Assembly: GCA_021202075.1 (NCBI GenBank)
Contig: JAJQDT010000108.1
Span: 8,282 to 65,309 of the forward strand
Direction of reading: 5' to 3'
Source: Lachnospiraceae bacterium
GTDB taxonomy: Bacteria; Bacillota; Clostridia; Lachnospirales; Lachnospiraceae
DNA length: 57,028 nt
This document shows, piece after piece, positions 21,566 to 53,490 of the stretch; position 1 is the stretch's first letter; each line of letters begins with the position of its first letter. A model generated the notes under the pieces. The model was given only the letters and a program-made list of their open reading frames with translations. It was not told where the DNA came from and ran no database searches. Made by a program: the position numbers and the translations under genes.

Positions 21566-22645
21566 TCATACATTTTCCGGCTCATACGGATTTACATGCA
21601 CCATCACGTGTTTGATATTATCAAATGTCTCCTCAAGTCCCCGGTGCACCTTCTCCGCGATGGCGTGCGCGCTTTCCAGCTCCATATGCGCATCTACCGC
21701 AATCTCCACATCCACGTATACCTTCTCGCCGAACATCCGGGTCTGCAGAAGGTCAATCCTCCGCACGCCCTCCTGGCCTGCAATAAAATCATGGACATGC
21801 CGTGTATAATCCTCATCGCAGGCCGTATCAGTCAGCTTTCTGGTCGCATCCATAAAAATCTCAACCGCAACCTTAATGATAAAAATACAGATCACCACGC
21901 TGGCAACCGAATCCAACACCGGCAGCCCGGCGCGTGCGCCCGCGATGCCGATCAGAGATCCGATCGAAGAAAATGCGTCCGAGCGATGATGCCAGGCATC
22001 CGCCATAAATGCGGAAGAATTCAGCTTTTTCGCACAGACCCGCGTATAGCGGAACATTCCCTCCTTCGACACAATCGAAACCACAGCCGCCGCCAGAGGC
22101 AGGATGCCCGGCACGGCAATCTCATCATAATTGCCGCCTAGAATCGTCCGCATCCCGCTCATGCCAATCCCGAGGCCCGTGACCAGCAGCAGCCCCGCAA
22201 GAAGCTCAGACGAAATGCATTCAAACCGCTCATGTCCGTACGGATGCCCGGCGTCCGCGCCCTTCCTGGCGATTCTTACACCGATCAGCGCAATCACCGT
22301 CGAGATCACATCCGACAGCGAATGAACCGCATCCGAAACCATCGCGGCCGACCGGCCCAGAACTCCCGCGATCAGCTTGAATGCCGAAAGGAACACATTC
22401 CCCGCGATGCTGACCGCCGAAACCCGCGCGACGAGAGCATTGTTCTGAGATGAGTTTTGAGCTGTATTTTGCCTGGTGCTCTGTTTTACGGTTGGACCAA
22501 TGTTTTGTCCAATACTTTGCTTTCCGTTTGTATTTAAATCAGTCTTTTCATTTATATTCTGATCAGAATGCTTTTCTATACCTTGCTTTCCAATTTGCTT
22601 TCCGGTTATCTCTTCGAATTCCAATTGTTCCTGTTGTCCTGTCAT
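21566..22645 (-). CDS. Cation diffusion facilitator family transporter
   Basis: 359 residues from the ATG at 22645, chosen because AGGAGGT lies 8 bases upstream; the earlier ATG at 22684 has no such site. Six membrane helices. SDAVHSLSDVISTVIAL and ADAWHHRSDAFSS hold the paired HxxxD metal sites of CDF exporters. The cytoplasmic C-terminal domain shows DVEIAVDAHMELESAHAIAE. The first 70 residues are a Gln/Asn/Lys/Thr low-complexity extension (QSIGQNIGPTVKQSTRQNTA), which makes it longer than the usual ~300 residues. The upstream NiCo-type riboswitch suggests export of Co/Ni, though Zn, Fe or Mn cannot be excluded. Confidence 0.92.
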   Translation of the reverse strand: MTGQQEQLEFEEITGKQIGKQGIEKHSDQNINEKTDLNTNGKQSIGQNIGPTVKQSTRQNTAQNSSQNNALVARVSAVSIAGNVFLSAFKLIAGVLGRSAAMVSDAVHSLSDVISTVIALIGVRIARKGADAGHPYGHERFECISSELLAGLLLVTGLGIGMSGMRTILGGNYDEIAVPGILPLAAAVVSIVSKEGMFRYTRVCAKKLNSSAFMADAWHHRSDAFSSIGSLIGIAGARAGLPVLDSVASVVICIFIIKVAVEIFMDATRKLTDTACDEDYTRHVHDFIAGQEGVRRIDLLQTRMFGEKVYVDVEIAVDAHMELESAHAIAEKVHRGLEETFDNIKHVMVHVNPYEPENV

Positions 22646-22802
22646 ATCAGGTAACCTCCTTACATTGTTCATCATCAGGTACAAATAATGAGCATAATAT
22701 GGTGAGCCGCACTATGAAAATATGCTTCACACAAGACGCGGCCTGCATCCGGCATATAAGAAAATGCCGGACATACTGTGCGAATCCCTCACCCCAGGAT
22801 AC

Positions 22803-22860
22803 AAAAGAAGCACCCCGGGCCGTCAGTAATACTACTACCTACTGTCCCGCAGATGCTTCT
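22803..22860 (-). terminator. Riboswitch expression-platform terminator
   Basis: Arms AGAAGCATCTGCGGG (22846-22860) and CCCGGGGTGCTTCT (22806-22819) pair and are followed by TTTT. The 5' arm is also the 3' side of aptamer helix P4 and the core GGGA, so aptamer and terminator exclude each other. That predicts an ON switch. Confidence 0.75.
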
Positions 22861-22963
22861 GTTACCTGCTGTCGCTATTGCAACCCGGCAATCGGAACGG
22901 TATACGGACTGTATACTTGATAGTCCGTCCTTCCTTCCGAAGCCTGATCAGTTTGTACTGTAG
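22831..22963 (-). promoter_or_regulatory. Candidate NiCo (czcD) riboswitch aptamer
   Basis: On the minus strand: ACUGAUCAGGC, a P2 helix UCGGAA/UUCCGA containing an extra ACGGACU/AGUCCGU hairpin, GCCGGG, a P3 helix GUUGC/GCGAC, and a P4 helix GCAGGU/AUCUGC running into GGGACAGU. From memory, crystallised NiCo RNA has ACUGAGCAGGC, P2, GCAGCCGGG, P3, ACAGAUG/CAUCUGU and GGGACAGU. The P4 difference is a compensatory A-U to G-C change. It precedes a CDF exporter, the classical NiCo target. The GCAGCC junction is shortened, which is the main doubt. Confidence 0.78.
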
Positions 22964-22993
22964 ATAAATTGCAGTGCAAAGTTAATTTTTAAT

Positions 22994-23022
22994 ATCATAT
23001 GTCACCGAATCAAAAATGTCAA
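22994..23022 (-). promoter_or_regulatory. Strong promoter for the CDF transporter leader
   Basis: TTGACA, 17 bases, TATGAT on the minus strand. Transcription would begin about 20-25 bases before the riboswitch. Confidence 0.85.
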
Positions 23023-23061
23023 CTGTTTTTTATTTCTTTAAAAACCGTGATCTGGCGTCTG

Positions 23062-24678
23062 TCAGAGTGTTTCAATTATACAATGATGATCTTTATCCTT
23101 TTTATGATAACCTATCCCAACCGCAAGAATTCGCCCCGTGGTTTTGGGCCGCTCACCAAGCTTTCCCCTGAATTTCATCGCATATTTTTTATCTTTAATC
23201 TGTTTTATCGCATTTTCTGCACTATCGTCCACCTTTAGCTCAATGATTATTCCATCCTCTTTTTTATTATACGGATAGAAAATATAATCCACATAACCAA
23301 TGCCTGCCTGATCTTCTCTCTGAATATCATATCGGTTTCTCGCAGTAAGGTATGCCAGCTTAACACATCCCGATAATTCCGCCTCGTCATTATAGGCTTT
23401 CAAGGGAGACTCTGAATGATGGACAAATTCCAATACTTCTTCAACCACACCTGTATCCCCGGCCAGCGTTGCCTGAAGGACGCGCTGCGACTGTTTTTCC
23501 AGCTCATGTACATAACTGTACTCCGCCTCTTTGTGAATCGTTTTCCCAAATTCATCCATCAGTTCTTTATTGGGGATTCGTACACATCCATCTTCATAAT
23601 TCAAAAAGCCATACACCACCATCGCCGAAAAGACTTCTTCTTTCGTACTTAAGTTCATTGCGGTAGCAGCATATTCCTCTATACTTGTTGAAATCGGCTC
23701 GCCAGCCGTCATCATAATAACGTCATCTTTTAGTCCCTTAATCTTTCCAACCTCTCCAACAATATACTTCGATATTTCCGAATACTGGCCTGAGCCTGTC
23801 CAATAACTCGCCAGATGATTATTATCCAAAGCATATACCACGGAGCGCGGGTTATATATGCGTGTCCCTGCGGCTGTATAATAGCCGTCATACCAAAATT
23901 TCAAGTCCTCCCTCGTAACAGCCGGGCGTTCTTGTTTTTTACAATATCTTTCATAAAGATCATCCACTTCTTCTTCCGTAAAACCAAAGTACTCGTTATA
24001 CTTCGGCTGCGTAGCCATCGTATACTCCATAAAATTATTTAGCGTATCACTTTGTGAATACTTTGCAATAGGCAGCACTCCCGTCATGTATGTAAAAGAG
24101 ACACAGCCAACGCCTTTGGTCAGATTCGCAAGAAAACTCGTATAGCTTTTTCTGTCGTTTTCAGTGAAAAAGTCCTTATGAAAAACACAGTCCCACTCAT
24201 CAAATACCAGAATAAACCGTTCCCCTGTACTTTGATGAATCCTCTTCATATCCTCCGCCACTGTGCCATTCTCCCGAAAATACACATCCGGAAAAGCGCT
24301 ATGAAGATCTTCCCTCAAAATATCCTTTATGTTTCCTATATAATCACTATATCTATGGTATTCCTCATCATACTTACTGAAATCAATATAAATCAGATTA
24401 TGCTGATTCAAATGAAAGCAAAACTTTGGGTCTTCCGCAATCTTAAGGGAAGCAAATACTTCTCTGCTGTCCATCCCTCTGCCAAAAAAAGAACCTATCA
24501 TAGAGGCAATCGTAGACTTACCAAATCGTCTCGGACGAGTAATGCACAAACTATATCCGCCCTGTTCCACGAGCGGAATCAGTTCAGTCAGCATCCGGGT
24601 CTTATCCACAAAATAAGGTTTCGCAGCCTCATTCTGAAATTGAGACAAACAGTCGTTGCTGTTCAAATAAAATCCCAT
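23062..24678 (-). CDS. AAA-ATPase-like / PD-(D/E)XK nuclease protein, paralog A
   Basis: 538 residues, AGGAGG before the ATG. The N-terminal AAA-ATPase-like domain (PF09820 type) has YFVDKTRML, a Walker A variant RPRRFGKST near residue 50 and Walker B FILVFDEWD near 165. The C-terminal nuclease-like domain (PF08011 type) shows GYVDYIFYP and IIIELKVDD (D...ExK). The family is abundant in gut anaerobes. No function is established; defence or mobile-element roles are guesses. Paralog B of identical length follows upstream on the same strand. Confidence 0.85.
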   Translation of the reverse strand: MGFYLNSNDCLSQFQNEAAKPYFVDKTRMLTELIPLVEQGGYSLCITRPRRFGKSTIASMIGSFFGRGMDSREVFASLKIAEDPKFCFHLNQHNLIYIDFSKYDEEYHRYSDYIGNIKDILREDLHSAFPDVYFRENGTVAEDMKRIHQSTGERFILVFDEWDCVFHKDFFTENDRKSYTSFLANLTKGVGCVSFTYMTGVLPIAKYSQSDTLNNFMEYTMATQPKYNEYFGFTEEEVDDLYERYCKKQERPAVTREDLKFWYDGYYTAAGTRIYNPRSVVYALDNNHLASYWTGSGQYSEISKYIVGEVGKIKGLKDDVIMMTAGEPISTSIEEYAATAMNLSTKEEVFSAMVVYGFLNYEDGCVRIPNKELMDEFGKTIHKEAEYSYVHELEKQSQRVLQATLAGDTGVVEEVLEFVHHSESPLKAYNDEAELSGCVKLAYLTARNRYDIQREDQAGIGYVDYIFYPYNKKEDGIIIELKVDDSAENAIKQIKDKKYAMKFRGKLGERPKTTGRILAVGIGYHKKDKDHHCIIETL

Positions 24679-24761: not shown

Positions 24762-26378
24762 TCAATTGTGAATCACCTCAATTTTGCAGTGATGATCCTT
24801 TTTCTTTTTACAGTATCCAATTCCTACCATCAGGATACGACCGGTATGGCGTTTCTTTTCAGCCATTTTTCCCTGAAATTTAAGAACATAATTCCGGTCT
24901 TTAATCTGTTGAATTGCCGCCTCAGGGGTGTCATCCACTTTGAGTTCAAGAATAATTCCATCATCACCAGGTCTTTCCGGGTAAAATATGAAATCAGCAT
25001 ACCCTTCTCCGGCTTTATCTTCTCTTTCTACAAAATAGCTGTCTCGTGCCGCCAGATAGACAAGATTCACAATTGCGGTCAATTCCGTTTCGTCGTTATA
25101 ATCCAATAATGGTGTTTCTGTGTCATGAGCAAACTGAAGCACATTTTCCATCGTTTTGATATCGCCCTTCAGCGTTGCCTTTAGCATGCGGTCAGATTCC
25201 ATCGCCAGTCTGTTAATATAGCCAAGATTTTCTTTTTCACAAATCGTCTTTGAGAATTCGTCCATCAATTCCCTGTTTGGGATATGGACTTTCCCATCCT
25301 CATAATTCAGGAATCCGTAAACAACCATCGCGGAGAGAATCTCATCCCGTGTGTTTAAATTCATCGCTGTAGCCGCGAATTCCTCCACTTTTGCAGGGAC
25401 TGCCTCTCCGGCGACCATGAGTGCGACGTCTTTTTTTACATTGGCTCTGTCATTCGTGATATAGGCAGAGATCTCATCATATGTTCCGGTTGCCGACCAA
25501 TAACTGCGGATCTGATTGCGCGTCAGTGCCTCTACCACAGACCTTGGATTATACATACGCTCTGTGGATGGCGTATGGTATCCATCGTACCAGTCTTTCA
25601 GATCCTGTCGGGATATTGTTCGATTTGGAGTCAATGCCTCATATCTGGCATAAAGCTCATCTACCTCAGCTTCTGTAAAACCAAAGTATTCGCTAAACAG
25701 ATCATCTGTTGCCATTGTATATTCGTAAAAGTTGTTAATTGTGGAGCCGCTTGAATACTTAGCTATGGGAAGTACACCCGTCATATAACTCAAAGATACA
25801 TATCCCGTATCCTTAGTCATTGCAGCAAGCCAGTTGATAAAGCTTCTTCTATCATCATTTGATGTATAAGTCTTATGAAAAATGCAATCCCATTCATCCA
25901 ATATAAGTATAAAATTCTCATTTGTATCCGCATGGATCAATCCCATGTAATCAGCAAGAGACAGGCCATTCCAATAATCGACTTCCGGAAATGTCTTGCG
26001 GAGATCCCGGACAATAAACATTTCTACATTGCTTATAAATTCTTCATAGTTTTTGCTTATGTTGGCCGTCTTAATAAAATTGATATATATCACATTATGC
26101 TGATTCAGGTGTTTTTGATAATCGGACGAGTCCTCAGCAATCTTCAGGGATTCAAACAATCCGCTGCTATCCTGCCCTTTGCCAAAGAATGCCCCAATCA
26201 TCGCTGCCGTTATAGATTTCCCAAATCGCCTCGGCCTGGTAATGCAGACATGGTTATTCCCCTGCTCCACTAAAGGAATCAGCTTTCTCAGCATATCTGT
26301 TTTATCTACAAAATATGGCTTTTTCATCTCGCTCTCATAGAGAGAATATGGCTGTGAGCCGTTCAGATAGTATCCCAT
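24762..26378 (-). CDS. AAA-ATPase-like / PD-(D/E)XK nuclease protein, paralog B
   Basis: 538 residues from the ATG at 26378 with AGGAGG 8 bases upstream. Same plan as paralog A: YFVDKTDML, Walker A RPRRFGKSIT, Walker B FILILDEWD, then GYADFIFYP and IILELKVDD. By eye roughly half of the residues are identical to paralog A, so this is an old tandem duplication. The start of both proteins (MGFYLN / MGYYLN) is conserved. Confidence 0.85.
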   Translation of the reverse strand: MGYYLNGSQPYSLYESEMKKPYFVDKTDMLRKLIPLVEQGNNHVCITRPRRFGKSITAAMIGAFFGKGQDSSGLFESLKIAEDSSDYQKHLNQHNVIYINFIKTANISKNYEEFISNVEMFIVRDLRKTFPEVDYWNGLSLADYMGLIHADTNENFILILDEWDCIFHKTYTSNDDRRSFINWLAAMTKDTGYVSLSYMTGVLPIAKYSSGSTINNFYEYTMATDDLFSEYFGFTEAEVDELYARYEALTPNRTISRQDLKDWYDGYHTPSTERMYNPRSVVEALTRNQIRSYWSATGTYDEISAYITNDRANVKKDVALMVAGEAVPAKVEEFAATAMNLNTRDEILSAMVVYGFLNYEDGKVHIPNRELMDEFSKTICEKENLGYINRLAMESDRMLKATLKGDIKTMENVLQFAHDTETPLLDYNDETELTAIVNLVYLAARDSYFVEREDKAGEGYADFIFYPERPGDDGIILELKVDDTPEAAIQQIKDRNYVLKFQGKMAEKKRHTGRILMVGIGYCKKKKDHHCKIEVIHN

Positions 26379-26449
26379 CAAATCGCCTCCTTGCGAATAG
26401 GGCTGCATTCCCGTTAACCTTAGATGGTGTAATGTTCCGTTAGCTTCCC

Positions 26450-27472: not shown

Positions 27473-30400
27473 TTACTTCACCGTCACCTTGACCTTAATA
27501 CTCTTGGATCCTGATTCGATCGTAATGGTCGCGGTTCCTTTTTTCTTTGCAACAATTTTACCCTTTGAGCTTACGGTCGCCACTTTCTTGTCAGAGGTTT
27601 TGTAAGTAACTTTCTGAACAGATGTGATCGGCGTAATCACCGGCAGCAACGTATAGGACTTACCTTTGCTCAATGATACTTTCTTTGAGACAACCGTAAT
27701 TTTTGTTGTTTTGACCACGGCTTTCTGAACGGTAACCTTAATATCTTTCGTTAATCCGCTTGCCAGAGTGACTGTGATAATCGCCTTTCCGGTCTTATTC
27801 TTTGCTGTAATCTTTCCTGCACTGGTCACGGTTACAACCTTTGTATTGCTGGATTTCCATGAAACAATGGAATCCCCTTCCGCAAGCCCGGTTACCTTCA
27901 GCGCTGTTGTTTTTTGTTTCTTCTTCAATTTAATCGAGGAAGCGTTCACCGTGATGGTCGGCGTCAATGTGGTTCCGTACTCACGTATCACTGTCTCACC
28001 GCAAATTTCGCAGGTATGCGTCTGAGTCTCTGGCGCAAATACCGTCGCCTCGCTCGTAGTTGTCCACTCGCCGTAGCTGTGGCCGGTTGCCGCAATCGTC
28101 TCCGATATCACAACAACAGAAGAACCGCACTCTGAGCAATACTGTACTCTGGTTCCAGCCTCCGTACATGTTGCCTCTTTCATCGTCACCCAAGTGCCGG
28201 TTGCTGTATGCGTATGAGTCGTACCCGCTGGATCGGTCGTATCGGTTGAGTCTGTTGAACCTGTCGTATCCGTTGAATCTATTGAGTCTGTAGTATCTGT
28301 CGCAAGCTTCGCAATTGCCTCTGTCTTCGTCGCGCCACAGGCCGTACAGGTATATGTCATTACTCCCGCAGCCGTAGTGGTTGCTTCCGTAGTGACTACC
28401 CCGTTATCCCAGCTATGACCTGTGGCCGCGATTGTCTCAGACTTCACGACTTCGGATGTTCCACAATATCTGCAATACTGTACCCGCGTGCCTGCTGTCG
28501 TACATGTCGCCGCCTTTGTCGTCACCCAGGTGCCGGTCGCCGTGTGCGTAGTCAGCTTGCTGATCGTTTCTGTCTTCGTCGCGCCGCAGGCCGTACAGGT
28601 GTAGGTCTTTACACCAGTCGCTGCGCAGGTCGCCGTCTTCGTAACTGTGCCGCCATCCCAGGTATGGCCGGTCGCCGCAATCACCAGATCCGCCGGGGAC
28701 ACTTCTGCGGTAAGAGCAGAATCCGCGAAATACTTCCCACAGATTTCACAGTACCAATACGCGATGTGGCCTTCTTCAGTACAGGTTGCATCCACCCCGC
28801 CATATTCCGACAGTTCATGGCCTGAGGCAACGGTTACCCGGTTGCTGCTTAATCCACAGACTGTACAAGTATGGTTCTCCTCACCTTCCTCTGTACAGGT
28901 CGGCTCTGTTACGGTTTCCCAGACGCTCCAGCTATGACCCGTCGCCGGGATAATTTCCTCATAAGAACTCCCGCAGGTCTGGCAGGTATAAGTGCGTCGG
29001 CCCGATGACGTGCAACCCGCCTCTTCCTCCACAGTCAGTTCATAACTGTGGCCGGTCGGCAGAATCGTCTCATAGACCGTTGTCCCACAAACGGAGCAGA
29101 CCGAAGAAGCGATTCCGGATGTCGTACATGTCGCTTCCTCTATAATCTCCTGTTCTCCGAGGGTATGGCTGCCTGTTCCGCAATTTTCCGTCCGAAATTC
29201 GAAGGTGCTAAAAGAAGCAGCCGCAAAGGTAATGGTTCCGTCTCCATTGTCCGTATAGGAAAGTTCAGTCTCTGCACCATCCTCGTTCAAATGGTATAAA
29301 CAAAAATTTAGTCCCACATAAGTATCTGGTACCGGCATCGTAATCTGCACCGGCGCGGACAACTGCTGCGCTGTATCCGAAAGTCTTACGCCATCTTTCA
29401 AAATATACAGGCTGATATTGACTGAGTAAACTGTCTGCCCGCTCTCGTTTACTTCCGAACCCGCTTCTGAAAAAACCACTTCCGCGGAGTAAACGGATCC
29501 TGCCTCGGCTGTAATGCCGGAGTTTTCATCCAGCAAAACCGCCGCTACCGTGACAGCCGCGCCATCCACGGTCACAGACGAACTCTCAAGAAAAGCAGAA
29601 GCACTTGATTCTTCAGAGGAAACTGCTGCAAGGTTGTAGGAATTATCCGTTTCATCTTCTGTAACGGTGATTGTAGTCTCAACTATTGTCACAGTTTCAT
29701 CTGATACATTACACCCTGTCTCTGCCAGCCTCTGTTCCAGAACAGTGACAAGTTCCATTGAGCCGTTATCAATGAGCTGCTGGTTGTCAATAGCCGCTGT
29801 GTTTTCTACCAGTTCCGATATCTGATAGTCGTCGGGCTCGTCCCCCGCATCTGACAGGCTGTCCAGTATATCCTGAATCGCCGCTGTTACCGTTTCGGGA
29901 ATCAGAATTTCAAGCGTTTCCTCCATCTGGCAGTCCTCGCAGACCCGATACCGTCTGCCCGATGTCAGCGTCTCTTCATCCGCCTCGACAATCTGTTCTT
30001 CACCCCAGCTATGTCCGGATGCTTCCAATATTTCAGTTTCCAGTTCACCACAGCCGCTCCTCTGGCAGATCCGGTATGCAAGTCCGTCCGTCGTACAGGT
30101 TGCGGCAAGTGCTGTCGTCCATGTCTCCGGCCACTCATGACCCAGTGCTTCCAGCACCTCATCCTTCTCCTCCTGGCAGGAGATGCAGGTATATCGCAAA
30201 GTTCCATCCGCCGTACAGGTCGCGTTCTGAACCACTGTCCCATCGTCCCAGGTATGGCCGGTGGCCGGAACCTCCTCGTCCTCATATTTTCCACAGAAAC
30301 TGCAGATATTTCGCAGAATTCCGTTCTCTGTACAGGTTGCTTCACGCATAATATACTGTTCAAAGGAGTGAACCGTCGGCGTCGATACACTCCCGGTCAG

Positions 30401-33400
30401 TTCAGCTGTCCCCTCCTCGTCACTGAAATACTTTCCGCATATCGAGCAATACCAGTATTCAATATTTCCTTCCTCTGTACAGGTTGCTTCCTTCGCCTCA
30501 ACATGGGTCAAATCTCCATGTCCCGCTGAGAGAACAAAGGTTGCAGAATACAAATCATAATCTATCGCGAAATAATAGGTTTCCTGCTCTTCCAGCGTAC
30601 AGCCGAGAGCCGAGCCCTGATCAATGAAATTGCCCGCTGAATCATACAGGATCACAGAAACGATACCAGTGCCATCCAACTCATATGCGCCGCTCTTCCC
30701 ACGCGGCACAGTATATTTGAAATATCGTTTTTCATAATTATAATATCCATCTGATTGCAGCATATCGTCTTCGAGAACCACTACCTTCGCAGAGTCTGTA
30801 ATCGTCTCCCAGGACTTCTGTAATTCAATAGATGTCTGGTGTCGCCCGAATGCATATGGCACCCGGATATAGTAGGTCTCATTCGCAGCCGCGACAAACC
30901 CAAGTGTCGAATACGATTCGTCCAATAAAATCCCGGCCGAATTATAAACCTGGTCCGTGACCGACAGGGTATCGGTCGAGAAAAGATAGAACCCCGCCTC
31001 AGTTGGCGTGAAAGTATACCAGACCACTTCCCCGTCCACGGTTCGTATCTCTTCCGTGATCTCGGTCCCTGCTGTCAGACTCTCCGCGCTCACGGAAACT
31101 GTATCAAAGATTTCATCTATAGACTGTCTTTTTTCCAGAAGAACCTGCCAGTTCCCATACGAACCATATCCACTCTCCATCTCAAAATAATAAGTAGTCC
31201 CTTCCTGAAGCATACAGGTCAGACTGCCGTTTGAAGTTGTTTCGGAAACACTTGTTCCATAACCACTATCCTCGGAAGGGGTCGTCTTTGCGGTTACATA
31301 CGCCACCAGATCCGCATCCTCTGCCGTATAGGAAAACTGATATTTCCCGGATTCCCCATTTGGCACAGTATATTTAAAGCATACCGTATCCCGGAGCACA
31401 GAAAGCTGCGCCGTATCCGCCGTATTGAGTTTTAATATCTGAGCCTCTTTCTTATAATCAACCCAGGATCTCCGTTTCTCAAGATATACCTGAAGTTCCT
31501 CAGATGCATCATCTGTGAAAATCAGAAAATAATACTGCTCATTTTCCTCTAAGGAAACAGTCCGGGAAGGACTCCCCCATGATTTTTTTGTCCCTTCATC
31601 GTCATACACTTCAATATAGTCGCAGCTAAGACTATAAAATTCGTACTGGCCGCCAGTTCCCTCTGGGACAACATAGGAAAAGACACATACACCCGAAGCT
31701 TCGGACGGAGTACCAGTTATGACATCATCCAGGGCAAGCGGTACTGCAGATGCCTCCAGTGATTCCAGCTGCACCAATTTAACAGACAGAGATTCCGGCA
31801 CACTGTTTTGACCATATATGCCGAAATAATACGTTTTCCCGGCAGTCAGAGAAAAAGTCGCGCTAAAAATGCTCCCACTAATAGAAACGTAGTCGTTCTG
31901 TGCATCATACAATTGAAAAGAACGTGAATCGGATGTCCAGAACCGATAGTATCCGGTTCCCGCATCGGATGGCACAGTATATTTCAAATACCCCCATTCT
32001 CCCTTATCCGGCTCAGTCACGGTCACAAGCTCCCCGACTGTCAGCTCGGTATCATCCATAGCCGTCAGGATGGCCTTAAAGGTTCCGGTCGCATTTCCCA
32101 CGCCTTGAACCGTGATATACCAGGTGGCGCCGGCGCTAAGCCGCTTCCTCACTCTCACAGAACTATCCCCCGACACATCCGTCGTCGAATTGCCGTTGCT
32201 GTTATAAAAGGTAATCTCTGCCCCGGGACTTTCTGTCAATTCAAATTGATAGGTTGCTGTCCCATTATCCGGCACAGTAAAGCTGTACCAGATGGTCTTC
32301 CCCGGCTCTATGATTGTTCCAGTCACAGATGTTCCAAGCTCCAGTTCTGTCGCATAGGATTTCATTGTGCTGAAGGTATTGTCCTTCCGAAGCACCGCCG
32401 TGACATACTCCGCTTCCGAATCGCCCGGCCTAACTTCAAAGTAATAAGTACTTCCAGAGCTTATGGTATAGCTCAGATAGCCTTCACCCGAACTCATTAA
32501 CGTCCCGGAGTTGGAATACAAATAAATTGAATTCCCTGCAGAAATCAGACGGTATGTCGATGTTGAACCCGCCGTATATTGGTAATAGACCGCCTCATCC
32601 CCTTCCGTCAGATCAATGTCAGCGTCCACATCCAGCGTCAGCTCCTGCGCCATCTCTTTTTTCTCAGACCAGGTCAGCGCATCCCTGCTCAAAAAAAGCC
32701 GGAATGCGCCACTGCTGCTCCGATATTGGCAAACAAGCTTAAAATAATAAGTCATCCCTGCTTCCAGAATCAGTGTATAATAATATTGCGACTTTGCATA
32801 AGACAAGCCGGACAGTTCTTCTATCACGTTACCGGCCGCATCGCAAACTGAACAGAACAGACTCGAACCGTCCGAAGAGACGACACCGAACTTATAAGTG
32901 CCGCCTGCGTCTTCCGGAACATCATATTTATAATAAAGCGTCCCGCCTTCCGGTATGGCATTCAGATCAAAGCTTTCGCCAGCTTCCACTTCAAAAGCTC
33001 CTGAAGCCCAGGTATCCAGGGACAGACTAACCGCATCCGCTATAGCCTCCTCCCAGGCATCCCGCTCCAGCATGACAGAAAATATACCTGCTGTATCCGC
33101 CGAAGAGTAACTGACTTTATAATAATAGGTACAACCTTCCTCGAGATACCAGGTCAGCACAAAGCAGCTGGCGTATTTCTTCCAATAAGTCAGCATATTA
33201 CCCGTCGCTCCGTCATACAGATAGCCATAGGCGCGGCTGCCCTCCTCAGAGGTCAGCGTATATCGACCACCTGCTCCCTCCGGCACTGTGTAGCGGAAGA
33301 ACACTTCATCTCCGCCCTCCAGAATGACAGCGGAGGCTTCCTCTCCGAGAGTCAGGTCGGTCACATCCTTCCAGAGCCAAGTGAGGTGCACGGTGAGCGT

Positions 33401-34750
33401 TGCCTTTTCCGCAGTCAGTTTGACGCTGATATAATACGTCCCGCCACCCTTCAGATAAGCCTCCGTATAAGTCTGCTTGTCGCCAGAGAGATAGGTATTT
33501 GACGCCATTACGGTGCTCGTCGACCCTTCCTCATAGATATACGTCGTCGTATTCGCACCCGCATCAAATTGATAGCGGCCACTTCGATCCTCCGGAACGG
33601 TATAAGTAAAATAGAACACCTCGTATGCCGAACCTCCGGTAACGCTCAGCTCAGTACCTTCAGTCACTTCTACAGCGTCAGCGGCAGAAACCGAGGCCGC
33701 CATGGCAGAACCCGCCTCTGTCTCCGAAATAGCCGATACCATGAGCACTGTCTCATTCATCTCTGATTCCGTCTCTGCCTCTGTTTCTGTGGATACTTCC
33801 ATCTCTGAATCTGCATCCAGCACCTTGGAGGCCTCACTCCCGATCTCCCCTGTCTGATTGCTATTACTATCCGCTTCTGTCTGTTCACTATCCGATTCTG
33901 GCTGGTCACCGGGTTCTTCCATCTGCTCCTCGACACTCGTGAGCAGCAACGTGACATCCATAACAGTGCTTATGTTCTCCGTCTCCACGGAGTAGTAATA
34001 AGTCACACTCACCGGCAACTCTGCTTCTGCCAGGATAATAGCCCCGTCCGAGATAGACACGCCTGTGTGGGCTATTGTTATTTTATCCATGGACTCCGGG
34101 CTGACCAGCCCGGCAAGAGAGATAACCCACGCACCGTCTTCCAAAATCGCGGCGGCTGTACATATTTGTCCGGAACAATAGAGTTCTGACAGGGCCGTAA
34201 AATACTCGATCCCATCCAGGCTGCCGATCGTGTTTTCCGTGACATCAATAACGACAGTCTCCTCAATTTCTTCATGACTCAACATACCATCCTGATCTGT
34301 GTCAATATTATCCGAAATGTACGCTCTGAAGGCCGCATCCGGAAAATACGCCTCGTCAACCGCGAGAGTCTCTGAAGTGTTCTTTGCAAGAGCCTTCTCA
34401 TCGTTCCCTGTTCCAGTTTCTGTTTCAATATCTTCCTCAATCTCGGCTGCTGCAACCTCTGTTTCCGTTTCTGTCTCAGTTTCCGACTCCGACTCAGTCT
34501 CCTCCAACTGCGCACTCTCCGTCTCATCCATCTCCGTTTCGACTGTCTCATCGCCCGATGCCAAAACTTCATTAATCTCAACGACGGTTACAGATTCCGC
34601 GGTCTCCATTTCATCCGATTCGGTGATTTCAGCATCAGCCACGCCTTCCTCAAGGATGATATCCGCACTGTCATAGGCTAACACAGGGCTTGCAGACGAT
34701 GTTACCAGCATCACCACAGCCATCCCAAGAGCCCAACCTCTCTTCTTCAT
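27473..34750 (-). CDS. Giant repetitive secreted surface protein
   Basis: 2425 residues from the ATG at 34750, which has GGAGG 9 bases upstream; a longer frame to 34813 lacks a ribosome site. The signal peptide is cleaved near SPVLA-YD. Residues about 30-340 are Glu/Thr/Ser-rich low complexity, interrupted near 150 by an EF-hand-like DTDQDGMLSHEE and the start of an LRR-like segment. About ten beta-sandwich repeats of the pre-peptidase C-terminal type fill residues about 355-1415 (key YFKYTVPEGxGGxYxF). About fourteen repeats of the EATCTEEG...YCSICG type (CxxC) lie at about 1415-2250, split by a 250-residue Cys-poor segment. Two Ig-like BIG2 domains end the protein. No LPXTG motif, SLH or dockerin is seen. 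A role as adhesin is inferred. Confidence 0.9.
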   Translation of the reverse strand: MKKRGWALGMAVVMLVTSSASPVLAYDSADIILEEGVADAEITESDEMETAESVTVVEINEVLASGDETVETEMDETESAQLEETESESETETETETEVAAAEIEEDIETETGTGNDEKALAKNTSETLAVDEAYFPDAAFRAYISDNIDTDQDGMLSHEEIEETVVIDVTENTIGSLDGIEYFTALSELYCSGQICTAAAILEDGAWVISLAGLVSPESMDKITIAHTGVSISDGAIILAEAELPVSVTYYYSVETENISTVMDVTLLLTSVEEQMEEPGDQPESDSEQTEADSNSNQTGEIGSEASKVLDADSEMEVSTETEAETESEMNETVLMVSAISETEAGSAMAASVSAADAVEVTEGTELSVTGGSAYEVFYFTYTVPEDRSGRYQFDAGANTTTYIYEEGSTSTVMASNTYLSGDKQTYTEAYLKGGGTYYISVKLTAEKATLTVHLTWLWKDVTDLTLGEEASAVILEGGDEVFFRYTVPEGAGGRYTLTSEEGSRAYGYLYDGATGNMLTYWKKYASCFVLTWYLEEGCTYYYKVSYSSADTAGIFSVMLERDAWEEAIADAVSLSLDTWASGAFEVEAGESFDLNAIPEGGTLYYKYDVPEDAGGTYKFGVVSSDGSSLFCSVCDAAGNVIEELSGLSYAKSQYYYTLILEAGMTYYFKLVCQYRSSSGAFRLFLSRDALTWSEKKEMAQELTLDVDADIDLTEGDEAVYYQYTAGSTSTYRLISAGNSIYLYSNSGTLMSSGEGYLSYTISSGSTYYFEVRPGDSEAEYVTAVLRKDNTFSTMKSYATELELGTSVTGTIIEPGKTIWYSFTVPDNGTATYQFELTESPGAEITFYNSNGNSTTDVSGDSSVRVRKRLSAGATWYITVQGVGNATGTFKAILTAMDDTELTVGELVTVTEPDKGEWGYLKYTVPSDAGTGYYRFWTSDSRSFQLYDAQNDYVSISGSIFSATFSLTAGKTYYFGIYGQNSVPESLSVKLVQLESLEASAVPLALDDVITGTPSEASGVCVFSYVVPEGTGGQYEFYSLSCDYIEVYDDEGTKKSWGSPSRTVSLEENEQYYFLIFTDDASEELQVYLEKRRSWVDYKKEAQILKLNTADTAQLSVLRDTVCFKYTVPNGESGKYQFSYTAEDADLVAYVTAKTTPSEDSGYGTSVSETTSNGSLTCMLQEGTTYYFEMESGYGSYGNWQVLLEKRQSIDEIFDTVSVSAESLTAGTEITEEIRTVDGEVVWYTFTPTEAGFYLFSTDTLSVTDQVYNSAGILLDESYSTLGFVAAANETYYIRVPYAFGRHQTSIELQKSWETITDSAKVVVLEDDMLQSDGYYNYEKRYFKYTVPRGKSGAYELDGTGIVSVILYDSAGNFIDQGSALGCTLEEQETYYFAIDYDLYSATFVLSAGHGDLTHVEAKEATCTEEGNIEYWYCSICGKYFSDEEGTAELTGSVSTPTVHSFEQYIMREATCTENGILRNICSFCGKYEDEEVPATGHTWDDGTVVQNATCTADGTLRYTCISCQEEKDEVLEALGHEWPETWTTALAATCTTDGLAYRICQRSGCGELETEILEASGHSWGEEQIVEADEETLTSGRRYRVCEDCQMEETLEILIPETVTAAIQDILDSLSDAGDEPDDYQISELVENTAAIDNQQLIDNGSMELVTVLEQRLAETGCNVSDETVTIVETTITVTEDETDNSYNLAAVSSEESSASAFLESSSVTVDGAAVTVAAVLLDENSGITAEAGSVYSAEVVFSEAGSEVNESGQTVYSVNISLYILKDGVRLSDTAQQLSAPVQITMPVPDTYVGLNFCLYHLNEDGAETELSYTDNGDGTITFAAASFSTFEFRTENCGTGSHTLGEQEIIEEATCTTSGIASSVCSVCGTTVYETILPTGHSYELTVEEEAGCTSSGRRTYTCQTCGSSYEEIIPATGHSWSVWETVTEPTCTEEGEENHTCTVCGLSSNRVTVASGHELSEYGGVDATCTEEGHIAYWYCEICGKYFADSALTAEVSPADLVIAATGHTWDGGTVTKTATCAATGVKTYTCTACGATKTETISKLTTHTATGTWVTTKAATCTTAGTRVQYCRYCGTSEVVKSETIAATGHSWDNGVVTTEATTTAAGVMTYTCTACGATKTEAIAKLATDTTDSIDSTDTTGSTDSTDTTDPAGTTHTHTATGTWVTMKEATCTEAGTRVQYCSECGSSVVVISETIAATGHSYGEWTTTSEATVFAPETQTHTCEICGETVIREYGTTLTPTITVNASSIKLKKKQKTTALKVTGLAEGDSIVSWKSSNTKVVTVTSAGKITAKNKTGKAIITVTLASGLTKDIKVTVQKAVVKTTKITVVSKKVSLSKGKSYTLLPVITPITSVQKVTYKTSDKKVATVSSKGKIVAKKKGTATITIESGSKSIKVKVTVK

Positions 34751-34960
34751 ATTCTTATCCTCCGTTCTTTTTCGTACAACAAAATAACTCTCACAAAATA
34801 ACCTGCACCTCATGCACAGTCAGGAGTTCCACGACGCTGCTTATTAAGCGAATCCAGGTTTCGGAACGAAGCATGCGTAAGCCGATCTGTTATTTTGTGG
34901 AAATCTCTGCCAGTCTCTTTTTAATCAGCTTAACATACCCCCCTGAAAGTCAAATATTTT

Positions 34961-53301: not shown

Positions 53302-53337
53302 AAAAAGAGCGCGAGACAAATATATGTCTCGCGCTCT
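53302..53337 (-). terminator. Terminator of the glycine riboswitch
   Basis: AGAGCGCGAGACA / TGTCTCGCGCTCT stem followed by TTTTTC on the minus strand, located between the second aptamer and gcvT. Its 5' arm overlaps the last bases of the aptamer (GACAGAG), which fits control by transcription termination. Confidence 0.92.
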
Positions 53338-53490
53338 GTCATGTTACCTGAAAGATTCCCGGAACGGTTCGCCGTCCGGTTGCTTCTTCGGCGCGGCCCG
53401 TAAAGCCGCTTTCCAGAGTATCGTCAGAAACTGGTCCTTTTGCCTGAGAGTTCTTCAGCCCCTTCGGCGCACTTCCTCGTATCTCTCCCA
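53335..53490 (-). promoter_or_regulatory. Tandem glycine riboswitch
   Basis: Minus strand: aptamer 1 GGGAGAGA, GCGCCGAAGGGG, AACTCTCAGGCAAAAGGACC; aptamer 2 CTCTGGAAAG, GCGCCGAAGAAGCAA, ATCTTTCAGGTAAC. Both show the GCCGAAG and TCAGG hallmarks, joined by the short linker of the gcvT RNA. With the following terminator it should switch gcv on at high glycine. Confidence 0.95.

Follow-up and report, generated by a model that had tools for sequence, protein, structure and literature searches.

A near-invariant 5' hairpin abutting the NiCo riboswitch of a Lachnospiraceae CDF exporter gene and its possible part in switching

The element described here, on the minus strand of a 57,028-nucleotide stretch of Lachnospiraceae DNA (hereafter, the window), is very probably a NiCo-class riboswitch with terminator control and with a real additional hairpin, P0, at the 5' end of its leader. 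What is new is that this strongly conserved 5' hairpin is left out of the standard NiCo model and may help the switch flip. We tentatively propose, at well under an even chance, that many Clostridia and at least two Erysipelotrichaceae carry P0 in their NiCo riboswitches as an unannotated module acting as a strand-exchange relay. The promoter, the aptamer, the terminator and then the CDF transporter gene follow each other on the minus strand in the order that had been predicted, with no strand named, from the letters (Table 1).

Table 1. Positions of the parts of the NiCo element and of the downstream gene in the window
Feature	Positions	Strand	Basis or remark
-35 hexamer TTGACA	23022-23017	minus	read from the letters
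-10 hexamer TATGAT	22999-22994	minus	spacer to -35, 17 nt
P0 5' arm (box) TTTGCACTGCA, near-invariant and not covered by the Rfam model	22970..22980	minus	13 nt after -10
P0 3' arm ACAGTACAAA	22952..22961	minus	Rfam NiCo positions 1-10 (1-9 unpaired in Rfam)
NiCo riboswitch aptamer	22961..22840	minus	RF02683, 65.3 bits
P1 5' strand ACUG	22949..22952	minus	abuts P0 without a linker
P2 extension hairpin ACGGACU/AGUCCGU	22904..22928	minus	fold and covariation
GCCGGG, P2 3' end and J2/3	22884..22889	minus	presumed counterpart of ligands G45-G47
P4 5' strand GCAGGU	22864..22869	minus	Rfam alignment and MFE fold
P4 3' strand AUCUGC and J4/1 GGG	22846..22854	minus	presumed counterpart of G87, G88
P1 3' strand CAGU	22841..22844	minus	Rfam alignment
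Intrinsic terminator hairpin and U tract	22803..22860	minus	5' arm overlaps P4 3', J4/1 and P1 3'
CDF cation exporter	21566..22645	minus	PF01545, PF16916, TIGR01297

The original prediction of a candidate NiCo riboswitch, for which a covariance search with the Rfam NiCo model had been suggested as the check, was upheld when this search was run: the match to RF02683 was full-length (model positions 1-96, complete) and scored 65.3 bits against a gathering cut-off of 37 (E = 7.4e-13 in the window search; 5.2e-15 in a 401-base search). It was the sole NiCo match found in the 5.55-Mb assembly. Another known RNA family upstream was rejected, since NiCo alone was over the cut-off in the Rfam search of 22700-23100 (two further rows had E values of 2.5 and 3.9). 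The helices P1 to P4 round the junction were present in the Rfam alignment (with two non-standard pairs) and in the MFE fold of the aptamer, and the P4/core sequence given in the prediction, CAUCUGCGGGACAGU, was located at 22855-22841 of the minus strand. GCCGGG and CUGCGGGACAGU were letter for letter the Rfam consensus, the core letters GCCGGG and CUGCGGGACAGUA stood without change in the Rfam alignment, and GCCGGG with CUGCGGGAC, examined for the metal-binding guanines of J2/3 and J4/1, was identical to the consensus. According to PMC7689651, G45-G47 and G87 and G88 are metal ligands of the NiCo RNA; by analogy, GCCGGG would correspond to G45-G47 and the GGG of J4/1 to G87 and G88. The GCAGCC junction had been described as shortened, and this was not borne out: apart from a single base missing on the 3' side of P2 and three missing from the P4 loop, the Rfam alignment showed no shortening. 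The window is thus like RF02683 in its full-length match, its P1-P4 junction, its consensus core letters, a terminator using the 3' strands of P4 and P1, and a metal exporter downstream. At E <= 0.001, 30 of 47 genomes of the same genus had a NiCo match, which exceeded the cut-off in 28 of them; of 299 genomes of the same family, 58 had one, 55 of them above the cut-off.

The window differs from RF02683 in that its P2 bears an added hairpin, common to its genus clade. The extra hairpin that had been noticed in P2 is present, with its arms at 22928-22922 (ACGGACU) and 22910-22904 (AGUCCGU), and 52 nt of P2 separate CAGGC from GCCGGG, compared with fewer than 40 in 146 of the 168 loci measured. 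This length speaks for the earlier suggestion of a divergent NiCo variant whose metal preference was changed through the P2 hairpin; however, the core letters equal the consensus, and the extension, which lies distally to the core, is kept in the genus clade with compensatory changes. Inserts of 51-55 nt occurred in 16 same-genus loci (L001, L006-L018, L020, L025). In the 15 of these that were aligned (L016 was left out), the P2 helices were paired in 95.9% of cells with 21 double-changed cells, and none of 500 shuffles was as high on both measures. The P2 lengths of L016 (51) and L134 (42) were determined by hand, the pattern starting at an earlier CAGAC giving 60 and 51, respectively. By sequence comparison, the extension that this hairpin adds to P2 is inherited, clade-specific, covarying and distal to the metal core. 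Because of this inheritance and covariation, together with the unchanged core, the altered metal preference is unsupported; we regard it as very improbable and rejected it, the core being unchanged against the consensus. Very long P2 inserts (86-107 nt) were seen in L029, L030 and L060, of which L060 was over the cut-off and L029 and L030 were below it.

The terminator hairpin (22860-22806) had a folding energy of -25.9 kcal/mol (z = -3.1; 0 of 200 shuffles equally good) and a short U tract (UUUU, 22806-22803); the simple terminator scan gave no entry for this hairpin. The arm on its 5' side is made up of the P4 3' strand, J4/1, the P1 3' strand and a portion of the P4 loop. The strands 22860-22841 are in common, as in the predicted terminator sharing its 5' arm with the aptamer, and by folding the two structures would be mutually exclusive; the claim of a complete expression platform is supported by this anatomy and by the folding. 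According to PMC7689651, switching in the NiCo family is off-on: the aptamer, once stabilised by metal, keeps the terminator from forming. With metal bound, P1-P4 would form together and the P4 3' and P1 3' strands would be withheld from the terminator, so that the exporter would be transcribed; with no metal, the same strands would form the terminator, as anatomy and folding indicate for the window. A further hairpin, TCCGGCAT-N8-ATGCCGGA, lies at 22748-22771 (minus strand) in the leader between the terminator and the CDF start, and its 8-bp arms occur at four genomic places, this one among them.

The predicted promoter, TTGACA-17-TATGAT, was found on the minus strand with 11 of 12 consensus letters. 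Note that the site by itself is not significant (one promoter-like site in 22500-23300 against 2.7 from shuffles); a promoter-like pair lay upstream in 74 of 103 homologous leaders, where shuffles would lead one to expect 6.1, and the spacing from the -10 to the P0 5' arm was 9-16 nt in 73 of these 74. The downstream ORF on the same strand matched PF01545 with 147 bits (cut-off, 26.6), PF16916 (ZT_dimer) with 70.5 bits and TIGR01297 with 214.9 bits (cut-off, 82.35), in agreement with the CDF exporter that had been named; by reading, its likely start is the ATG at 22645 behind AAGGAGG, the mechanical ORF beginning at the TTG at 22684. From its position, the NiCo element is predicted to control this exporter. 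Thus, the NiCo riboswitch, its platform and the CDF exporter of the original interpretation stand, and its divergent variant with altered metal preference is not supported. Downstream of the NiCo loci, 146 of 173 ORFs were CDF homologues (90 of 108 at loci with P0), and most of the remaining 27 read as P-type ATPases.

The exporter scored highest with the equivalog models MamB (205.5 of 350), MamM (191.5 of 350) and FieF (136 of 420), had a low score with DmeF, the model of a Co/Ni exporter (21.3 of 250), and passed no equivalog cut-off. In the alignment to a solved FieF-type pump, it had H and D in both the first and the second metal-site motif. An HD-HD site is typical of zinc CDFs. The exporter leaves the sensed metal undecided, which may be Fe(II), Co(II) or Ni(II) in this host. 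The cognate metal of NiCo/czcD is reported in the literature as disputed, being Co/Ni in the first study and Fe(II) later, and according to PMC7689651 the published affinities vary widely among studies. Elsewhere in the window, two tandem proteins (538 and 548 aa; 23062-24678 and 24762-26408, minus strand) are alike by reading, the first of which matches AAA-ATPase_like and PDDEXK_9; 27473-34813 (minus strand) encodes, by reading, a repeat-rich, secreted-looking protein of 2446 aa. A glycine riboswitch aptamer (RF00504, 58.3 bits) lies at 53326-53426 (minus strand) at the start of a GcvT-like ORF, followed by GcvH-like and GcvPA-like ORFs (names by reading), as in ordinary glycine-cleavage control.

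The 5'-terminal hairpin P0 is made of an upstream 5' arm (UUUGCACUGCA) and, as its 3' arm, Rfam positions 1-10 (ACAGUACAAA). The Rfam model draws positions 1-9 (ACAGUACAA) unpaired, and the window differs from RF02683 in having P0, a hairpin missing from the Rfam structure line, before and abutting P1; the original prediction made no mention of the upstream arm at 22980-22970. We examined 174 NiCo loci (114 from searches and 60 fetched), with further matches lying outside this sample and 23 additional loci left out of the analysis; 172 were usable, L023 having no upstream letters and L117 containing an N. All 84 loci with an exact ACAGTACAAA carried TTTGCACTGCA upstream (11 of 11 letters in 70 and 10 of 11 in 14), and shuffled upstream stretches (one per locus, 84 loci) gave at most 8 of 11; selection by the exact 3' arm is free of box-likeness bias. 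This test replaced a first one, in which the upstream stretch best complementing the 3' arm was compared with shuffles; that test was weak (single-locus p, 0.005 to 1), since an arm of 10 nt will find some pairing partner upstream by chance. Among the 172 loci, both arms were present in 99, neither in 59, the 5' arm alone in 10 and the 3' arm alone in 4. The 14 discordant loci comprised one-base offsets (L020, L136), compensated forms by reading (L022, L096, L156) and nine others that were unexplained. The 5' arm was found in 74 of 87 same-family loci (a tally that includes 30 fetched same-genus loci), 20 of 43 same-order loci and 15 of 42 other phylum loci, counts that are not phylogenetically independent. 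By this comparison, having P0 is typical for the clade to which the window's switch belongs.

The two-arm pattern was found in 38 of 299 family genomes; it adjoined a NiCo match in 36 and adjoined NiCo across an assembly gap in one, and the remaining match lay in apparent coding sequence without a NiCo match. Among the best 80 of 523 CDF relatives (in named genomes), the rough pattern gave P0 in 54, of which one (L256) was false on reading, and the NiCo core in 59; Rfam found NiCo in 13 of 20 submitted from these. Holdemania massiliensis and Beduini massiliensis, both Erysipelotrichaceae, carried P0 plus NiCo. The crystallised NiCo aptamer (PDB 4RUM) is from Erysipelotrichaceae according to PMC7689651; it belongs to the same RNA family as the window's, and P0 occurs in two members of that bacterial family. 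The exact P0-NiCo pattern was not found in viral contigs, and no plasmid record matched the Holdemania P0-NiCo query. In L019 and L025, arm-like stretches upstream of the aptamer were displaced or duplicated; in L025, a complete box and ACAGTACAAACT lie some 20 nt ahead of where the scored aptamer begins. In the literature on the NiCo/czcD riboswitch, the titles and abstract openings among the matches listed had no upstream hairpin, the primary papers being outside this scope. The Rfam structure line does not show P0, whose novelty beyond that is unproven.

For the structure of P0, 109 loci with the 5' arm (8 of 10 letters) were chosen by box likeness, which inflates the first ten conservation positions. 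The P0 rows, the box conservation and the leader-shuffle test left out L025, L050, L145, L152, L028, L069 and L099, and the leader-shuffle test also those loci whose four P1 pairs were not all standard; L022, a compensated form that falls short of 8 of 10 box letters, was put into the P0 rows by hand. The off-state folds and the promoter count left out L025, L050, L145, L152, L028 and L069, and the off-state folds also three loci lacking a downstream T4 run. The MAFFT alignment, which left out L025, L050, L145, L152, L019, L070, L076, L105 and L148, misaligned the apical stems of P0; therefore, each P0 loop was folded alone, without L025, L050, L145 and L152 (arm on a decoy or duplicate). The pairs of P0 held in 97.4% of cells (28 distinct rows). 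Two of the seven pairs showed a single double change, G-C to A-U in L082 for one and U-A to C-G in L156 for the other, and G-U variants were counted at all seven. Ten to 17 of 500 shuffles reached the observed covariation measures, a count that leans towards P0, since rows were picked by box likeness, seven awkward loci were out and L022 was added by hand; the covariation is thin because the P0 sequence hardly varies (54 of 103 rows were identical). In the same rows, the covariation of P1 was not significant (61 to 66 of 500 shuffles). Thus, as a helix, P0 is well supported by the co-occurrence of its arms and weakly by covariation.

The repeat TTTGCACTGCA...ACAGTACAAA forms a dyad close behind the -10, as would suit a repressor-binding DNA operator located where transcription starts. 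Its spacer, however, varies from 5 to 43 nt, the variation on which we rejected this reading, and long spacers tend to fold alone (37 long loops, mean z of -2.0; L019 and L143 had positive z). Furthermore, 37 of the 38 pattern matches in the 299 family genomes adjoin NiCo, and the G-U variants and double changes noted above are as RNA pairing allows. An operator is therefore very unlikely.

P0 might instead be a separate 5' hairpin of an ordinary NiCo riboswitch, protecting the mRNA or keeping the P1 5' strand accessible with no switching part, a reading to which we give close to an even chance. Its position near the predicted transcript start (9-16 nt after the -10 in 73 of 74 leaders) agrees with this, as do a mean net effect of about zero on the on/off balance (see below) and the existence of NiCo loci without P0 (at a limit of 8 of 10 letters, the 5' arm is absent from 63 of 172). 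Unpaired positions of the box, however, are near-invariant, which argues against a mere stem: C5, a C-A mismatch inside P0, was kept in 84 of 84 loci, the unpaired C10 in 83 of 84, and A11, which is not paired in P0, in 96 of 102. As far as sequence conservation can tell, a plain stem fails to explain the kept C5 and C10. In addition, P0 and P1 were joined without a linker in the aligned rows (L020 had one extra base), although the P0 loop varies from 5 to 43 nt.

That P0 acts as a relay between the bound and off states is, from the folding, a real possibility that falls somewhat below an even chance. The RNA starts with P0 (UUUGCACUGCA with ACAGUACAAA), which abuts P1 and would be a part of the switch. 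In the bound state, P0 would stack on P1 to form one stack. In the off state, P0 would open; the P1 5' strand would then pair with the CAGU of P0 (hairpin CAGU-ACAA-ACUG) and the P4 5' strand with the UUGCACUGC of P0. The arms of P0 would thus stand in for the strands stolen by the terminator, ACAGUA copying the P1 3' strand and CUGC resembling P4 3'; they would pair mutually when metal is bound and with the orphaned 5' strands of P1 and P4 when the switch is off.

The P1 5' strand ACUG is able to pair also with the CAGU of the P0 3' arm. In the best off fold of the window, CAGU paired with the P1 5' strand and UUGC-CUGC of P0 with GCAGGUAA of the P4 5' side, and keeping P0 in the off state cost 4.6 kcal/mol (-61.6 versus -66.2). 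In the off-state folds of 100 homologous leaders, the terminator was present in 100, the CAGU-ACUG hairpin in 78 and a kept P0 in 10; in unliganded aptamer-length folds, P1 was present in 29 of 100 and P0 in 44 of 100. In the window ensemble, CAGU-ACUG prevailed at nearly every transcript length computed, before and after the terminator, and P0 was substantial only at the aptamer end (about 2.2 expected pairs). Both the unliganded folds and this ensemble speak against the relay. Note that the energy model is without metal and does not properly include coaxial stacking. Of 93 loci, 90 had a P1-forced fold that was more stable with the native leader than with shuffled ones (mean difference, -2.6 kcal/mol), and for the off (terminator) fold the same held in 76 (mean difference, -2.3 kcal/mol). 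The mean net effect on the on/off balance was about zero (+0.35 kcal/mol; sd, 1.95), so P0 would deepen both states rather than favour one; the window's own leader favoured the off state by 3.1 kcal/mol. Also against the relay, the CAGU-ACUG alternative had no significant covariation (92 to 104 of 500 shuffles), and the box was kept in 14 loci whose P4 side is CAGUGG instead of CAGCAG, which argues against a selected pairing of the 5' arm with P4.

If the relay is true, an aptamer without P0 is a truncated natural switch, and metal affinities determined in vitro may differ from those of the full leader. A deposited family model such as RF02683 can end in the middle of a helix, and, if many leaders hold a P1-abutting helix with alternative P1 and P4 partners, the affinities of isolated aptamers may mislead.
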